Source: a bacterium (GTDB taxonomy: Bacteria > Patescibacteriota > Minisyncoccia > Phycocordibacterales > 2-02-FULL-43-11). From it: a stretch of 11,898 bases of DNA. Position 1 is the first letter of the stretch. Every line of letters begins with the position of its first letter. Where the stretch lies: NCBI GenBank assembly GCA_021814895.1, contig JAKAHN010000009.1, forward strand, positions 1 to 11,898. Direction: 5' to 3'. This document shows positions 3,465-9,119 of this stretch, piece after piece. Below the pieces are notes generated by a model. That model had not been told where the DNA came from and did not search any database. It saw only the letters and a list, made by a program, of their open reading frames with translations. Both the position numbers and the translations under genes were made by a program.

Positions 3465-3857
3465 TCATAACAAAACTTTTCCAGAAAAACCCATGCCCCA
3501 TAAATACCCCAACTCAAGCAACCTTGTATTAAACGGGGGCTTTTCTTGGTAATAAGGGTTTTCATAGCAACTACCAAAGCGTGCTCTGGTATCCTCACCC
3601 TCACGATACGCCTTTTGCCATTCCCATTGCCTGACCCAGAAATCTGTTTTCCAGGCATCATCGCCAAACCAAACGGGTCCCTGATCAACAGGCACCCCGG
3701 CATCATAAGCATCTCGTGCTTGGATAGCGATGACAGAATGACTGACCATGGCCCGCAACATTTCTGATGCCTGCTCTCTTTTCATTCCCATCTTAAGAAG
3801 GCCTGTGAAAAAAACTTTCACCTTTTCTTTGAGTTCTTTAAGTTTGAGTATGTCCAT
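3465..3857 (-). CDS. Hypothetical Trp-rich protein, 130 aa
   Basis: I do not recognise this family. The first 45 residues are a Lys-rich amphipathic helical region (MDILKLKELKEKVKVFF...REQASEMLRAM). The second half is aromatic, with six tryptophans (63, 69, 74, 78, 80, 120) and clustered tyrosines (98, 102, 103), ending in a Gly-rich hydrophobic tail; no signal peptide or clear membrane helix. The start at 3857 is supported by a GGAAGG Shine-Dalgarno site (3867-3872) nine bases upstream, unlike the neighbouring housekeeping genes. Composition is more GC-rich than smc. It sits 65 bp behind smc and is closed by its own terminator, so it may be co-transcribed with smc. An inserted accessory gene is my preferred reading. 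Confidence 0.65.
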   Translation of the reverse strand: MDILKLKELKEKVKVFFTGLLKMGMKREQASEMLRAMVSHSVIAIQARDAYDAGVPVDQGPVWFGDDAWKTDFWVRQWEWQKAYREGEDTRARFGSCYENPYYQEKPPFNTRLLELGYLWGMGFSGKVLL

Positions 3858-3922: not shown

Positions 3923-6223
3923 TTATTTCGCCACTTGCACCGCCTCTTCAAAAGCTACGGAAAGAAGCTTAGAAACCCCATCTTGACCCATTGTTACACC
4001 GTAGAGAACACCTGCTCGCGACATTGTCTCTCGATTATGAGTTATCAAAATAAGTTGGGAAAGTTTTGAAAGACTCTCAATCATATCACCATATTTCCGC
4101 GAATTGGCTTCGTCCAAAGCGGCGTCTGTTTCATCAAGAATAATAAATGGCGGAGGATTAACTTGCGAAATCGCAAAAAGTAAAGCGATTGAGGTAAGCG
4201 CCCGTTCTCCGCCGGAGAGCATTTCCAATCCTTTGATATTTTTTCTCGGTAATTTTATTTCAATTTCTATTCCAATTTCAGGTTTTGTATCACCACCCTC
4301 AACCTCCTCAAGAATCGCCAGTTGAGACTCTTCATCACTCATCGTTTCGTTGATTTTCTTTTTCTGCTTTGTCTCTTCTTCGACTCTAATAGCCGCCTTG
4401 CCTCCACCAAACATCAATGTAAAAAAGGACTCAAATTGAGCATTGATTTTCAAAACTCCATTTTTAAACTCAATTGTCAATTTCTCATCCAATTCTTCTA
4501 TCAACTTCTGCAAAGAGTCGGATGATTGCTCAAGATCAGATAATTCTTTTTCAAGAAAAGCGTCATGTTCGCTAACTTCTTTATATTCCTTCAAAACATC
4601 GTCACCGCCACCAAGACCGGCATCTTCAATCCTCACCTTGTGTTTTTGAATAAGGCGTAAACGATCTTCCTGATTATTACGAGGTTCAAGATTGGAAACT
4701 TCTTTTGTAATCACTTCCCCACTCTCACCAACTAATTCTTGTTTTGAATAATCAAAAACTTCCCTGCCTAAAATCATTGCGCCCTCTTTCACCTCTCTTT
4801 CAAATTCATCTTTTAAAATTGCTAATCGGCCTTCTTTATCTTTAATAAGAGATAAAGAGGCGTAGATCTCCTTCTGTTCTGCCATAAGTTCAAACATTCT
4901 TTTTTCAGCGTCTCGACTCTTATCTTTTTCTGCCTCAATAGAAGTCTTTATTTCATTGTAACTTGCATAAAAAGATTCTTCTTCTTTTTTTAAATCATCT
5001 GTCTTAATTTCCAATTCCTTTTTTTGACTATCAAGATTGCCTATCTCCTTTTCAAAATCATTAATCTCTCCTGAGGTATTGGCCCGATGACTCTCAATAA
5101 AATCCTTGATAGCGTTTTTTATCTTGGAAAAAATAGAACGTATCGTTCCAAGATCTTCTATTTTTTCCGCGCTGACGATTTCTCTCTCAATTACCCCGTA
5201 CAAATCTTTTACTTTTGAAATAGGCACTACAGCATCATCGGCACGGCTTAGATCCCTTTTTGCCTTTTCCATCAAACGAGTTAAACTGCCGAGTTCGCCT
5301 TCAATCCTACCAGCCTCACGTGAAAAAGCGTCGCGTTTTGTTCGGACATCGTTTAACTTTCCCTCAATAGCAATCAGTTCGCTTCGTTTTTTATCAACAC
5401 CCGGTGATTCGGAGATTGTTCTTTTTACTGAGATCAGTTCGTTTTCAATTTTTTTTAATTTCTCTTCTGGTTCTCTTTTTTGCAATACAACCTCTTCCTT
5501 TTTGAAATCAATATAATGATTCTCTCTCCATAAATATTCTCTATACAAATGACGCAATTCTTCTTTAAGCTGGAGCGTCTTTTCAACTTTCTCAACTTGT
5601 TTTTTCAAGAATCGCAAATGCGGGGCAATTTCCTTTCTCAATGAATTAACTTGACCGATATTCTCTTTCGTTTTTTCTAACTTACGTTCACTTTCACGCT
5701 TTTTATATTGATAAATTTTTAACCCAAGAGCATCCTCAATCATCTCTTTTCTTTCTTTAGGACTAGCCAAAAGAATATGGTCGGCTTCGCCCTGAGAAAT
5801 TATGTGGTGTCCTGAAGCGCCAATATGAGCATTGGCTAAAAGCTCAATAACATCTTTTAATCGGACCACTGTGCCGTTTATTAAATATTCGGAAACAGAA
5901 TCGCGATAAACCACACGTTCAATCGAAACTTCGTCAAAATCAACATTCAAAAGACGTTTGGAATTATCGAAAACAATTTTTACTCCAGCTCTGTTTGTCC
6001 GATTGGCGCCTCCGCCACCGCCATTCCAAATCAAATCCTCACCTCGTTTGCCTCGCATTGATTTTAAAGATTGCTCGCCGAGAACAAAACGAAAGGCTTC
6101 AACTATATTTGATTTTCCACTGCCATTCGGCCCCACTACCGCCGTAATCGGCGCGCCAAAAGTGAGCTCCGTCTTTTTAGCGAAAGATTTGAAACCGCCG
6201 AGTTCGAGAGACTTCAAATACAT
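3923..6223 (-). CDS. smc: Compact SMC chromosome-segregation ATPase
   Basis: Structural-maintenance-of-chromosomes ATPase, the core of condensin, which extrudes DNA loops and organises the nucleoid. The N-terminal head carries Walker A GPNGSGKS (31-38) and a Q-loop region SQGEADHIL (143-151). The C-terminal head carries the ABC signature LSGGER (669-674), Walker B IILDETD with Asp697/Glu698, and His729 of the switch. The ending VLYGVTM...GVSKLLSV is typical of SMC rather than Rad50 or RecN. Length is 766 aa against about 1150-1200 for bacterial SMC. Coiled coils run about 175-330 and 382-590; only about 50 residues (333-381) separate them, where the hinge of about 150 residues should be. An acidic, low-complexity insert lies at about 617-650. 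Next to rnc, as in many bacteria, but ftsY does not follow. Confidence 0.93.
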   Translation of the reverse strand: MYLKSLELGGFKSFAKKTELTFGAPITAVVGPNGSGKSNIVEAFRFVLGEQSLKSMRGKRGEDLIWNGGGGGANRTNRAGVKIVFDNSKRLLNVDFDEVSIERVVYRDSVSEYLINGTVVRLKDVIELLANAHIGASGHHIISQGEADHILLASPKERKEMIEDALGLKIYQYKKRESERKLEKTKENIGQVNSLRKEIAPHLRFLKKQVEKVEKTLQLKEELRHLYREYLWRENHYIDFKKEEVVLQKREPEEKLKKIENELISVKRTISESPGVDKKRSELIAIEGKLNDVRTKRDAFSREAGRIEGELGSLTRLMEKAKRDLSRADDAVVPISKVKDLYGVIEREIVSAEKIEDLGTIRSIFSKIKNAIKDFIESHRANTSGEINDFEKEIGNLDSQKKELEIKTDDLKKEEESFYASYNEIKTSIEAEKDKSRDAEKRMFELMAEQKEIYASLSLIKDKEGRLAILKDEFEREVKEGAMILGREVFDYSKQELVGESGEVITKEVSNLEPRNNQEDRLRLIQKHKVRIEDAGLGGGDDVLKEYKEVSEHDAFLEKELSDLEQSSDSLQKLIEELDEKLTIEFKNGVLKINAQFESFFTLMFGGGKAAIRVEEETKQKKKINETMSDEESQLAILEEVEGGDTKPEIGIEIEIKLPRKNIKGLEMLSGGERALTSIALLFAISQVNPPPFIILDETDAALDEANSRKYGDMIESLSKLSQLILITHNRETMSRAGVLYGVTMGQDGVSKLLSVAFEEAVQVAK

Positions 6224-6256
6224 GAATTATGAATTAAATATTATGAATTATGGATA
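6222..6256 (-). repeat. AT-rich heptamer array abutting the smc start
   Basis: Five 7-bp units on the plus strand (6222-6228, 6229-6235, 6236-6242, 6243-6249, 6250-6256). Three are exactly ATGAATT; the others are AAATATT and ATGGATA. The first unit overlaps the smc start codon. With the promoter at 6268-6276 the array would make up almost the whole mRNA leader; no Shine-Dalgarno site is present. Confidence 0.7.
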
Positions 6257-6335: not shown

Positions 6336-7025
6336 CTAATTCCAATTTTTTGACTTCAAACCTGCTTCGGCCGCCTTCTGCTCAGCGTCTTGCTTTGACT
6401 GTCCTTCGCCTTCCGCTACCTTTTCCGAACCGAGAAAAACGCCGACTGTGAATTTTTTATCGTGATCGGGACCGATTTCGCCCAAAGTTTTATAAGACGG
6501 CGTAATATTCGCTATCTCTTGAGCTTTTTCTTGAAAATGACTCTTGGAGTCAAGCCAGTGTTTCTGCTCCACAATCTCGTCTGTGGCTGGCAACAAAACC
6601 CTTTCAATAAATTTTTGAGTTTCAACATACCCTTGGTCAAGAAAAATCGCGCCGACTACAGCCTCAAAGGTGTTTGCTAAAATATATTGTCTTGCTCGGC
6701 CGGTATCTTTGGCCTCTCCCCGTGAAAGTAAAAGAAAATTATTCATTCCCAATTTCATCGCTAAATCAGACAAAATATTGGCATTAACAAGGGCGGAACG
6801 AAAAGCAGTTAACTCTCCTTCCGGTTTAGTCGGATATTTTGCAAAAAGAAATTCCGTAACAATCAATTCCAAAACCGCATCGCCTAAAAATTCCAAGCGT
6901 TCATTGTGCTCCAATTTCAATTTGCGATTTTCATTTAAGTAGGAACGATGAGTAAAGGCCGTTCGCAAAAGGTCTTTGCTTATAAAAGTCACTCCCAAAG
7001 TTTTTTCGCAAGCGTTTGTATCCAT
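6336..7025 (-). CDS. rnc: Ribonuclease III
   Basis: Double-strand-specific endoribonuclease that processes rRNA precursors and degrades structured mRNA; acts as a homodimer with Mg2+. The signature NERLEFLGD is at 41-49 (Glu42, Glu45, Asp49), with Glu71 in EGELT. The second catalytic segment reads LANTFEAVVGAIFLDQGY (117-133), giving Glu121, while the position equivalent to Asp114 of the E. coli enzyme is Asn118. The C-terminal double-stranded-RNA-binding domain covers about 155-226, with the usual KxxAEQKAAEAGL ending. Length 229 aa is typical. The ATG at 7025 is preceded within 6 bases by the heptamer array, not by a Shine-Dalgarno site. It follows the nusB fusion by 78 bp and is closed by a terminator. 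Confidence 0.96.
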   Translation of the reverse strand: MDTNACEKTLGVTFISKDLLRTAFTHRSYLNENRKLKLEHNERLEFLGDAVLELIVTEFLFAKYPTKPEGELTAFRSALVNANILSDLAMKLGMNNFLLLSRGEAKDTGRARQYILANTFEAVVGAIFLDQGYVETQKFIERVLLPATDEIVEQKHWLDSKSHFQEKAQEIANITPSYKTLGEIGPDHDKKFTVGVFLGSEKVAEGEGQSKQDAEQKAAEAGLKSKNWN

Positions 7026-7030
7026 ATAAA

Positions 7031-7098
7031 CTAGGCGCTAGGAGCTAGGCGCTAGGCGCTAGGAATTACTAGAGCCTAAGGCCTAAAGCCTAAAGCCT
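7031..7098 (-). repeat. Double heptamer array between nusB and rnc
   Basis: Plus-strand 7031-7063 carries four full CTAGGCG-type units (one is CTAGGAG) and a partial fifth. After a 10-base spacer, 7074-7098 carries GCCTAAG, two GCCTAAA units and a partial fourth. The second set resembles the reverse complement of the first (TTTAGGC against CTAGGCG), so the two halves can fold on each other into a long imperfect hairpin. It fills almost the whole 78-bp gap and ends 6 bases from the rnc ATG. There is no U tract in the direction of transcription, so it is not an ordinary terminator. Confidence 0.85.
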
Positions 7099-7103
7099 TT
7101 TTA

Positions 7104-8003
7104 TTATTTTTTACCTAATAAAATGTTGATTGCCTTTGTGATGATCGGCAAAATGTCACTATAAAAATTTAAAGTTAAAATATCCTGCATTTTAAACCAT
7201 CGGCCATCATCCAATCCGCCGGAAGTGCCAAGTTTAATATTTGAAAACGGCGATTCGGCCAAAAAATAATTAACGTGTTTTCTTATTTTTCCCAACTTCG
7301 GGTCATTGGCCGGATATTCATTGACACCAAGTCTTTCTATGATTTTTATATCAAGACCGAGCTCTTCTTTCAATTCCCTGACAGTTCCCTCCTCCTCATT
7401 TTCATTTTCTTCAATTTTTCCTTTAGACAAAGTCCAATGCCCGAAAATGTCATGAACTAAAGCTAGATAAATATCACCACCGTCTCTCGCGTAAACCACC
7501 GCTCCACCTAATTTTTGAATCGGCAATTTGTCATACGGAACATTTTCTTTTCTGATCCGGCGTGGCGGAGCGTCTTTTTCCGGTTCACCAAGCTCTTTGT
7601 AAACAGAGCCGAGAACGCCATTCACAAACTTGCTACTGTGTTCTCCGCCAAAAGTTTTGGCCAACTCAATAGCTTCGTTAATTGCCACCTTCGGCGGAAC
7701 TTCGGTGTGGTCAGAAAAAAGCAACTCAAAAAGACCGATACGCAAAACATTTCGGTCAAGGATGGCGATTTTAGAAATCGGCCATTCTGGAGCAGCTTTG
7801 GTTATAATCAAGTCAATATCCTGTTGTTTTTCAAGCACTCCTTTAAATAATTTTTCCGTAAAAGCGGGAGCGCCCATATCTGGCGCAAACTCTGCAGTAT
7901 TTCGCGCCAGGGCTTCAATAGCCTCTTTCTGATTAAGACCATTAAAATCACACTCAAAGAGTGTCTGAAGAACAACTGATCTTGCAAGGTGCCGATTGGC
8001 CAT
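7104..8003 (-). CDS. nusB: NusB fused to a Nudix hydrolase domain
   Basis: A 299-aa two-domain protein. Residues 1-138 are a complete NusB (MANRHLARSVVLQTLFECDF, ILDRNVLRIGLFELLF, PPKVAINEAIELAKTFGGEHSSKFVNGVLG), the helical factor that with NusE/S10 binds boxA RNA in rRNA antitermination and rRNA folding. After a charged, Pro-rich linker (139-162), residues 163-299 are a Nudix domain. Its box spans Gly195 to Leu217 and fits GX5EX7REUXEEXGU without a mismatch (Glu201, Arg209-Glu210, Glu213-Glu214, Gly216). Nudix enzymes hydrolyse nucleoside diphosphates linked to another moiety; this domain looks closest to the Ap4A/MutT-like group, but the substrate is not readable. The frame is uninterrupted, so this is a true fusion unless the sequence is wrong. 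Located between rpmF and rnc. Confidence 0.9.
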   Translation of the reverse strand: MANRHLARSVVLQTLFECDFNGLNQKEAIEALARNTAEFAPDMGAPAFTEKLFKGVLEKQQDIDLIITKAAPEWPISKIAILDRNVLRIGLFELLFSDHTEVPPKVAINEAIELAKTFGGEHSSKFVNGVLGSVYKELGEPEKDAPPRRIRKENVPYDKLPIQKLGGAVVYARDGGDIYLALVHDIFGHWTLSKGKIEENENEEEGTVRELKEELGLDIKIIERLGVNEYPANDPKLGKIRKHVNYFLAESPFSNIKLGTSGGLDDGRWFKMQDILTLNFYSDILPIITKAINILLGKK

Positions 8004-8015
8004 ATGAATTTTTTT

Positions 8016-8092
8016 GGCGCTAGACTCCGCCAGCTGGCGGAAGGCACTAGGCGCTAGAACTTATAAGGCCTAGGGTGTAAAGTCTGGAGCCT
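8016..8092 (-). repeat. Heptamer-like repeats and palindrome between rpmF and nusB
   Basis: GGCGCTAG occurs at 8016-8023 and 8050-8057, flanking a perfect 16-bp palindrome TCCGCCAGCTGGCGGA (8026-8041). From 8043 a degenerate 7-bp register continues to about 8092: GGCACTA, GGCGCTA, then units of form TARRGYC. ATAAGGC (8063-8069) also pairs with GCCTTAT (8089-8095). The element fills most of the 93-bp gap before nusB. Confidence 0.6.
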
Positions 8093-8096
8093 TATC

Positions 8097-8321
8097 TTAT
8101 TTAGTGTTTTGTTTCGCTTTCAATTTCTTTTCTTTTTTGGCGAGTTTTTTGCTCGCATCAAAAGTTTTCAAACCTTTGTACATACCGCAATTCGGACATG
8201 CGCGATGAGCTAAATGCGCCGTGTTGCAATTTGGACACATAGAAGTCCGCGCTCCTTTAAGAGCGTGGTGTGACCGCCTATTGTTGCGGTGGGAACGATT
8301 TGCGCGCATTCGAATTACCAT
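8097..8321 (-). CDS. rpmF: 50S ribosomal protein L32
   Basis: A 74-aa large-subunit protein. RSHHALK (residues 16-22) is the L32 signature. Cysteines 29, 32, 42 and 45 (CPNC and CPNCG) form a zinc ribbon, so this is the zinc-binding (C+) type. The C-terminal tail is Lys-rich, as expected for rRNA contact. The ATG at 8321 (MVIRMRANRSHRNN) is chosen because it lies 7 nt after a plausible -10 box and because the 12 residues added by the ATG at 8357 are hydrophobic and unlike L32. No Shine-Dalgarno site. First gene of the minus-strand block. Confidence 0.95.
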   Translation of the reverse strand: MVIRMRANRSHRNNRRSHHALKGARTSMCPNCNTAHLAHRACPNCGMYKGLKTFDASKKLAKKEKKLKAKQNTK

Positions 8322-8450: not shown

Positions 8451-9119
8451 TCATTTTGAACTCGCTTCCCCGTCAAGAGATTCAAGGTAAGACCGCACTA
8501 TTGGCATGTACTCAGGCACAACCTGAATAATGCCGGCGGATGCCTCAAGAATCTGGCCGTAACGAAAGGCTATTCCCTGATGCAACCCTGCCAACCGATG
8601 CACAGTTGCGGCAACCGCCTTTCGGTGGATAGGCTTGGTTGCTCGACGGGGTTCCATTTGCCTCCACAGATCAGAAACTTCGAACCACCGAGCTGGTTCG
8701 AGCGTTTCTTCACCTGGAGTCCCCTCTTCCTCCGTAAGCCTATGATCGCGAAGCACTCCGGCTTCATATCTCAAGGCCCGAAATCCTTTGAGGTGTAGCA
8801 GGGTTGCTTCCTCCAAGGGAGTCCCTTTTTGCTTGTCATCCACAACGAGCTCCCAGTACACCAAACTGCGAACCTCTTGAGTCCACTTCGGCTCCGGGGT
8901 GAGATTGAAAGCCTCTTGGCGCAACTCGCGCACAAGAGTTTCGTTGAAGGTCTCAGACCTACCCCCCTCACCAAAACCTTGCTTACCCATGAACATCCGG
9001 ATGGTAACTTCGTCCCATTTCCGGTAATTCATTGCTGCGATTTCCAACCTGTTTGGTTGGGATCTGTAAAGAACCACTCCGGCCGCATGCGACCGGATCT
9101 TAGCATTTGGATTCAGCAT
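8451..9119 (-). CDS. Divergent Nudix-domain protein, GC-rich, likely acquired
   Basis: A 222-aa protein whose N-terminal 155 residues look like a Nudix fold. The box runs Gly50 to about Asn72: Gly50, Glu56, Arg64-Glu65-Leu66, then Gln68-Glu69 where EE is usual, and Phe71 where Gly is usual. So most metal-binding positions remain but two box residues deviate; activity is uncertain. ARWFEVSDLW (143-152) is the usual aromatic stretch after the box. The helical C-terminal part (160-222) is unassigned. It differs from its neighbours in three ways: clearly higher GC, a full AAGGAGG Shine-Dalgarno site 7 nt before the ATG, and a promoter with a structured leader of about 55 nt. This suggests horizontal acquisition. 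It is a single-gene unit between rnhB and rpmF. Confidence 0.75.
   Translation of the reverse strand: MLNPNAKIRSHAAGVVLYRSQPNRLEIAAMNYRKWDEVTIRMFMGKQGFGEGGRSETFNETLVRELRQEAFNLTPEPKWTQEVRSLVYWELVVDDKQKGTPLEEATLLHLKGFRALRYEAGVLRDHRLTEEEGTPGEETLEPARWFEVSDLWRQMEPRRATKPIHRKAVAATVHRLAGLHQGIAFRYGQILEASAGIIQVVPEYMPIVRSYLESLDGEASSK

Follow-up and report, generated by a model that had tools for sequence, protein, structure and literature searches.

A lineage-varying seven-base repeat hairpin in front of the RNase III gene of some Paceibacteria points to possible recognition and cleavage by the enzyme of its own message near the 5' side of the gene

The stretch of DNA analysed here (11,898 nucleotides, hereafter the window) is contig C157 of an assembly, G000, that comprises 866 kb in 160 contigs with an estimated contamination of 7.6%. 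On its minus strand it carries rnc (6336..7025), whose product joins an RNase III domain to a dsRNA-binding motif (Pfam PF14622, PF00636 and PF00035), preceded by nusB (7104..8003), which encodes a NusB domain fused to a NUDIX domain (PF01029 and PF00293). The 78-nt intercistronic leader between both genes (7026..7103, minus strand) is predicted to form a single imperfect 25-pair hairpin with an energy of -34.7 kcal/mol. Read on the transcribed strand, its 5' arm is made of GGCTTTA-type units (7069..7098; GCCTAAA on the plus strand), followed by the apical loop TAATTC of the RNA fold, flanked by two CTAG (7063..7068), and by a 3' arm of CCTAGCG-type units (7031..7063); in the genus sister G001 the apical loop is AAATTT. 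The original prediction of two opposed heptamer arrays filling the nusB-rnc gap was borne out by TRF, which recovers CTAGGCG x4.7 with 92% matches on the plus strand at 7031-7063 and CTAAAGC x4.3 with 86% matches at 7069-7098, and the capacity of these arrays to fold on each other is evident in the 25-pair hairpin, none of 200 shuffles reaching so low an energy. The array had been placed 6 bases from the rnc ATG; the count is 5 nt, and 5 nt also lie between the nusB stop and the 5' arm. The two arrays form the two arms of a single double-stranded RNA hairpin, situated between nusB and rnc on a putative polycistronic mRNA, since gene order suggests that both genes share a transcript.

The periodicity and the fold of this gap stand clear of chance, with a lag-7 score of 21.0 against a maximum of 8.5 in 2000 letter shuffles and a z of -2.97 for the RNA fold; folded as DNA, the same gap is unremarkable (z +0.30). 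The sense RNA is not more stable than its antisense (-34.7 versus -35.3), and among 24 rnc stems the sense fold was the lower one in 15, a bias common to other gaps (171 of 259). The locus shares with the E. coli-type RNase III feedback leader a long stem-loop in the untranslated leader of rnc. A search of the window against Rfam at gathering score returned no matches. The 7-bp periodicity had also been said to recur in the leaders of this gene block, and to this extent it does: the nusB leader contains a degenerate copy of the rnc-leader heptad family (8042..8102, minus strand; 76% identity to the rnc leader by blast, E 6.7e-5), and the nusB leader of G001 shows a comparable degenerate copy by eye. 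A further heptad array, with unit AATTATG in TRF, lies on the minus strand at the start of the SMC-like gene (so named by Pfam) downstream of rnc (6222..6255). Elsewhere in the window, an AACCTTT-type heptad array at 2020-2052 lies within a trmD-like reading frame, as if absorbed into the protein, and an inverted repeat at 2363-2419 whose 28-bp arms match perfectly around a 1-nt spacer, perhaps a two-way terminator, sits between this trmD-like gene and a KH-domain-like one (gene names assigned by eye). The open reading frames 8451-9119, 212-865 and 3465-3857 had no Pfam match at E 0.001.

The closest named rnc belongs to Ca. Taylorbacteria RIFCSPHIGHO2_02_FULL_43_32b (79% identity), where the array is the same as in G001. 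Residues E42, E45, D49 and E121 of RNase III are present in all 78 homologues compared, and position 118, close to the active site, holds N in 71 of them and D in the other 7; N is also the residue aligned at this position in one of the two RNase III domains of Drosha. The reading frame upstream of rnc measured 297-333 aa in 21 of 28 named relatives and 137-203 aa in the other 7, a comparison of lengths in which one of the 7 short frames is cut by a contig end.

The survey of rnc loci in the order and its kin covered 80 distinct loci, 78 of them usable (L030 and L196, which had no upstream ORF, were left out), with rnc starts reset by homology. The gap preceding rnc is at least 35 nt long in 33 of these 78 loci, 17 of which carry a heptad array and 19 a fold with z < -3; the remaining 45 gaps, shorter than 35 nt, are too short for such an element, so that a leader stem throughout the lineage, as would be looked for in an E. 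coli-type feedback leader, is not found. Nonetheless, where there is room the arrays are concentrated at rnc. Among gaps of 40-400 nt in 208 fetched loci (window included), arrays occurred before rnc in 14 of 27 as against 89 of 1089 other gaps, and among the 13 downstream-gene clusters with at least 5 members rnc was the only enriched one. Set against neighbouring gaps, the counts were 14/26 versus 11/162; the contrast held when the window was left out (13/25 versus 11/160) and when the set was thinned by hand to one locus per close clade (9/16 versus 9/133), and permutation of labels within 24 loci, again leaving out the window, gave 5.4 expected against 12 observed (p 0.00025). In both the 14/27 and the 14/26 counts ORF starts were used for all genes. 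When only strict stems were counted (20 pairs or more, loops no longer than 3, no more than 25 nt from the start), they were present in 12 of 29 rnc gaps and in 37 of 560 other co-directional gaps (p 5e-7), a comparison that may favour rnc in its distance component given that rnc starts were reset by homology and control starts were not. By a laxer statistic allowing loops up to 8, 20 leaders have a stem of at least 18 pairs, and in 19 of them it ends 1-24 nt ahead of the rnc ATG. The fold z differed only slightly between rnc and neighbouring gaps (p 0.04), since spacers of this kind often hold hairpins. The recA leaders, too few to carry weight (18 of 30 loci usable), included one array among 9 gaps of 40-300 nt.

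Seven-base periodicity extends well beyond rnc. Lag-7 arrays were more numerous than those of every other lag tested (4-15, 18 and 21) in the sampled part of G000 (40 contigs, 282 kb) and likewise in that of G001 (14 contigs, 150 kb), lag 14, a multiple of 7, ranking next. The expected excess of 7-bp periodicity in the genome and its relatives therefore holds for both these samples but not order-wide, since among 18 genome samples of the order lag 7 led the noncoding lags in 6; period 7 is thus common in the order, not universal. In co-directional gaps other than those of rnc, taken from 167 fetched loci, 81 lag-7 arrays were counted as compared with 2 at lag 6, 16 at lag 8, 11 at lag 9 and 62 at lag 14. 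A tandem period of 7 that exceeds other periods in intergenic DNA is shared with the fixed-unit heptamer repeats of other bacteria; one conserved unit per genome, as in STRR, TAACTGA or GGGAATC repeats, is not, with 94 distinct consensus units among 202 arrays and several within G000 alone. Stop codons in all frames were considered as a reason for period 7: units holding a stop on both strands made up 57% of 138 noncoding array units versus 31% after shuffling, a figure biased by the fact that noncoding here means lacking ORFs, and on which we therefore do not build. The repeat dialect of the window, CTAGGCG, gave 24 matches in G000, 21 in G001, 12 in G017, 11 in G038 and 9 in G033 and none in 17 of 41 genomes, in a search run up to E 10 whose weakest matches are chance and in which one place can match both strands. 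Inverted CTAGGCG/GCCTAA arrays also occur in other families, before a trmD-like gene in G133 (L203), among the matches listed, and before recA in G044 (L232).

The placement of the arrays is far from even. Their density was 8.33 per kb in rnc gaps (17 in 2.0 kb), 0.83 in other co-directional gaps, 0.49 in divergent and 0.20 in convergent ones, with 64 arrays, or 0.04 per kb, inside called ORFs; gene calls are longest ORFs, whose starts may be off. The excess of co-directional (without rnc) over convergent gaps (81 in 97.0 kb versus 6 in 29.8 kb) had a p of 4e-5 and that over divergent gaps a p of 0.025. In co-directional gaps 46 of 98 arrays ended no more than 20 nt ahead of the downstream start (random placement would give 32%), and 45 of 98 began within 20 nt of the upstream stop, the latter because the gaps are short. 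The hairpin of the window is one member of a class of repeats, often inverted and with a 7-nt period, in co-directional spacers of the Paceibacteria order that includes Ca. Taylorbacteria and its kin, and the rnc leader is a preferred site of this class.

The letters of these hairpins are replaced between close relatives while the hairpin itself stays. For this comparison a locus was labelled as having a hairpin when z was under -2.4 or the lag-7 score at least 9.5, a threshold chosen after the leader fold and array data had been seen; the short-gap loci L170 and L172 carry the label by z alone. Mapped onto a phylogeny of 78 RNase III proteins, the label, carried by 27 rows, requires 17 changes, of which well-supported branches force at least 11, so it has often been gained and lost. 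It is present in all 8 members of a group of related loci (L146, L147, L148, L150, L151, L152, L156 and L157), of which the 8-row fork is weak (81/5) and the 7-row fork has values of 88/84. Ten leaders were aligned, the pairs reported being those with z >4 or named beforehand. The RNase III proteins of L147 and L148 are 93% identical and those of L150 and L151 91% identical, yet the leaders of neither pair can be aligned above shuffles (z 1.8 and 1.7). The leaders of L148 and L151, on the other hand, are shared (91% identical, z 19.7), and that of L146 aligns weakly with those of L150 and L151 (z 4.5 each), so not all leaders of the clade are unrelated.

Where leaders can be compared, the paired positions are the slower ones: in the L148/L151 and G000/G001 pairs taken together 9 of 138 paired sites have changed as against 18 of 55 unpaired ones (p 9e-6). 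No base pair in these leaders has changed on both sides, so the pattern speaks for constraint and is not proof of compensatory change. Between G000 and G001 the 3' arm is identical at 31 of 31 nt, compared with 30 of 67 four-fold rnc sites (45%; p 7e-9), which indicates that this arm is kept in its sequence and not in its pairing alone; its copy number is the same in both species, and the 5' arm is different. Among 37 orthologous gaps of this species pair an array was present in either species in 8, and in both at the rnc gap only.

We interpret the heptad hairpin as an element of the rnc leader, most simply a feedback or processing site for RNase III, a reading whose probability we put at roughly 0.45; its architecture, period, enrichment at rnc and turnover are observed, and cleavage is what we infer. 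The original interpretation of the foldable leader as a possible target of the enzyme it precedes thus keeps its hairpin, its 7-bp periodicity beyond the locus and its special link to rnc, the cutting itself staying conditional. RNase III would bind and cut the stem that ends shortly before the rnc ATG, and the abundance of the enzyme would then determine what share of the rnc message is cut off from nusB, exposed or degraded, in a feedback like that of E. coli. RNase III needs a duplex of about two turns, and the letters matter little. If the enzyme reads duplex and not sequence, the heptads could have any letters as long as they came as an inverted pair, which would explain the turnover of the letters; moreover, heptad arms may pair in registers shifted by 7 nt, so that the hairpin could be kept through insertions and deletions. 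It is tempting to speculate further that Paceibacteria have a structure-only, sequence-replaceable rnc operator, on which arrays arise or land repeatedly and are kept since RNase III sees the duplex, and that heptad hairpins elsewhere mark operon spacers under RNase III control genome-wide, although we consider this extension unlikely as a whole. The PNPase leader was considered as a second RNase III target and set aside, its domain PF03726 having no match in 41 genomes of the order (it was detected in 10 of 14 control genomes).

The main rival to self-cleavage is a general intercistronic processing site, given that long stems also stand before nusB in at least 5 members of the 8-locus clade (L146, L151, L152, L156 and L157, by the lax statistic). 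Heptads would here stabilise, separate or translationally insulate cistrons, rnc being one target of many without any feedback. The 4-fold higher density of arrays in co-directional than in convergent gaps agrees with such a role, as do the same-type inverted arrays before nusB, the trmD-like gene and recA in some genomes and the missing PNPase domain, since the decay machinery may differ from that of E. coli; the roughly tenfold higher density of arrays in rnc gaps than in other co-directional ones and the enrichment of rnc alone among 13 clusters weigh against it, and we judge it improbable, if still a serious competitor. The constancy of period 7 across many units (94 among 202 arrays) and the rapid turnover of arrays could also be read as a mere product of mutation, in which replication favours 7-bp duplications and template switching and heptad palindromes appear wherever DNA is unconstrained; indeed, in most of the bacterial genomes examined in Mrazek 2007 no long simple repeat is more common than the heptamer, as reported in the available sections of PMC4692102 and PMC4679880. 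A purely mutational account does not, however, predict the poverty of convergent gaps, which are equally noncoding, nor the enrichment at rnc, the intact 3' arm beside four-fold sites 45% identical or the slower change of paired sites, and it appears rather improbable to us.

Insertion of a miniature inverted-repeat family into spacers, with the rnc leader as a hot spot, would accommodate the dispersed and patchy distribution of the CTAGGCG dialect and the replacement of whole leaders between some close relatives, but no shared core, ends or target duplication were noticed by eye, the sole PF01797 transposase of G000 has a different palindrome around it in place of heptads, and a 21-mer of the CTAGGCG array had no exact match in IMG/VR; we regard a mobile origin as very unlikely. 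An origin from this PF01797 gene and, on the one 21-mer, a phage link were discarded on the same observations. REP elements with their RAYT transposases are also small palindromic dispersed elements, and the heptads resemble them in this respect; the RAYT-like gene of G000, a single copy on contig C27 (L144) with palindromes of the type AAGGTCGAACCTT repeated around it, carries a different repeat, so that the flanking of a cognate Y1 transposase by its own repeats is not seen for the heptads. Least credible of all is a transcription terminator, antisense or bidirectional: on the plus strand the hairpin is followed by TTTTTATTATTTTTT, but, as originally stated, transcription through the hairpin does not run into a U tract, the only one being on the opposite strand, where no gene was recognised here. 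Arrays are scarcest in convergent gaps, the natural place for terminators, and the hairpin did not appear in a scan for terminator-like sites (loops 3-8, simple stems). An intrinsic terminator would have a U tract behind its GC stem on the transcribed strand; the hairpin does not, and it was rejected as one.

To our knowledge little RNA-based regulation has been described in Patescibacteria. A leader whose fold persists through the replacement of its letters would exemplify, in clear form, selection acting on the duplex alone. Candidate RNase III targets would become recognisable from sequence in organisms difficult to cultivate, and the long-known excess of heptamers in bacteria would gain a possible function besides polymerase slippage.

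The cyanobacterial STRR sequences, to which the repeats had been likened beforehand, are tandem heptamers with fixed units, and we know of no hairpin at rnc among them; the parallel holds for the tandem heptamers and fails for the unit, which is fixed there and highly diverse here. Searches on tandem repeats in Parcubacteria and on RNase III in Patescibacteria, on the surface of the open-licence literature, yielded nothing resembling a heptad rnc hairpin and no heptamers in Patescibacteria/CPR, in keeping with the earlier statement that no equivalent is described in this group. As far as the available sections of the sources go, a heptamer excess is reported in many bacteria, with polymerase slippage proposed as its cause (PMC4679880, PMC4692102; Mrazek 2007 as reported there). 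TAACTGA direct heptamers are known from Beggiatoaceae, some Cyanobacteria and Bacteroidetes; they share with our arrays the period of 7 and the intergenic location, lie mostly just before start codons and have been proposed to act post-transcriptionally, but consist of one fixed unit in almost exclusively direct orientation, with one inverted set among 170 (PMC4679880), whereas here many units, often inverted hairpin pairs and a focus on rnc are found. The GGGAATC repeats of Xanthomonas and GGGGA(T/C)T of Nostoc are, like ours, heptameric, intergenic and in some cases inverted; they differ in being G-quadruplex-prone, and the available part of their description holds no link to rnc (PMC4692102). 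On the side of the enzyme, RNase III of E. coli cuts a structure in its own 5' UTR and thereby speeds the decay of its message (available sections of PMC5371410), the rnc leader or rncO autoregulation being attributed there to Bardwell 1989 and Matsunaga 1996. The leader described here is similar in placing a stem-loop before or in the rnc message, which is cut there and could be cut here; it differs in lying between cistrons behind nusB, in being built of heptads and in having its letters replaced between some close relatives. RNase III feedback is reported for Streptomyces as well as for S. aureus (PMC3386247, where S. aureus is compared with E. coli and Streptomyces); in S. aureus it operates through a stem that is cut within the coding sequence, as opposed to the leader stem of our locus. 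Heptamer repeats before genes and hairpins in rnc leaders are each already known elsewhere; what seems to be new is their combination, inverted and lineage-specific heptad hairpins concentrated in the rnc leader.
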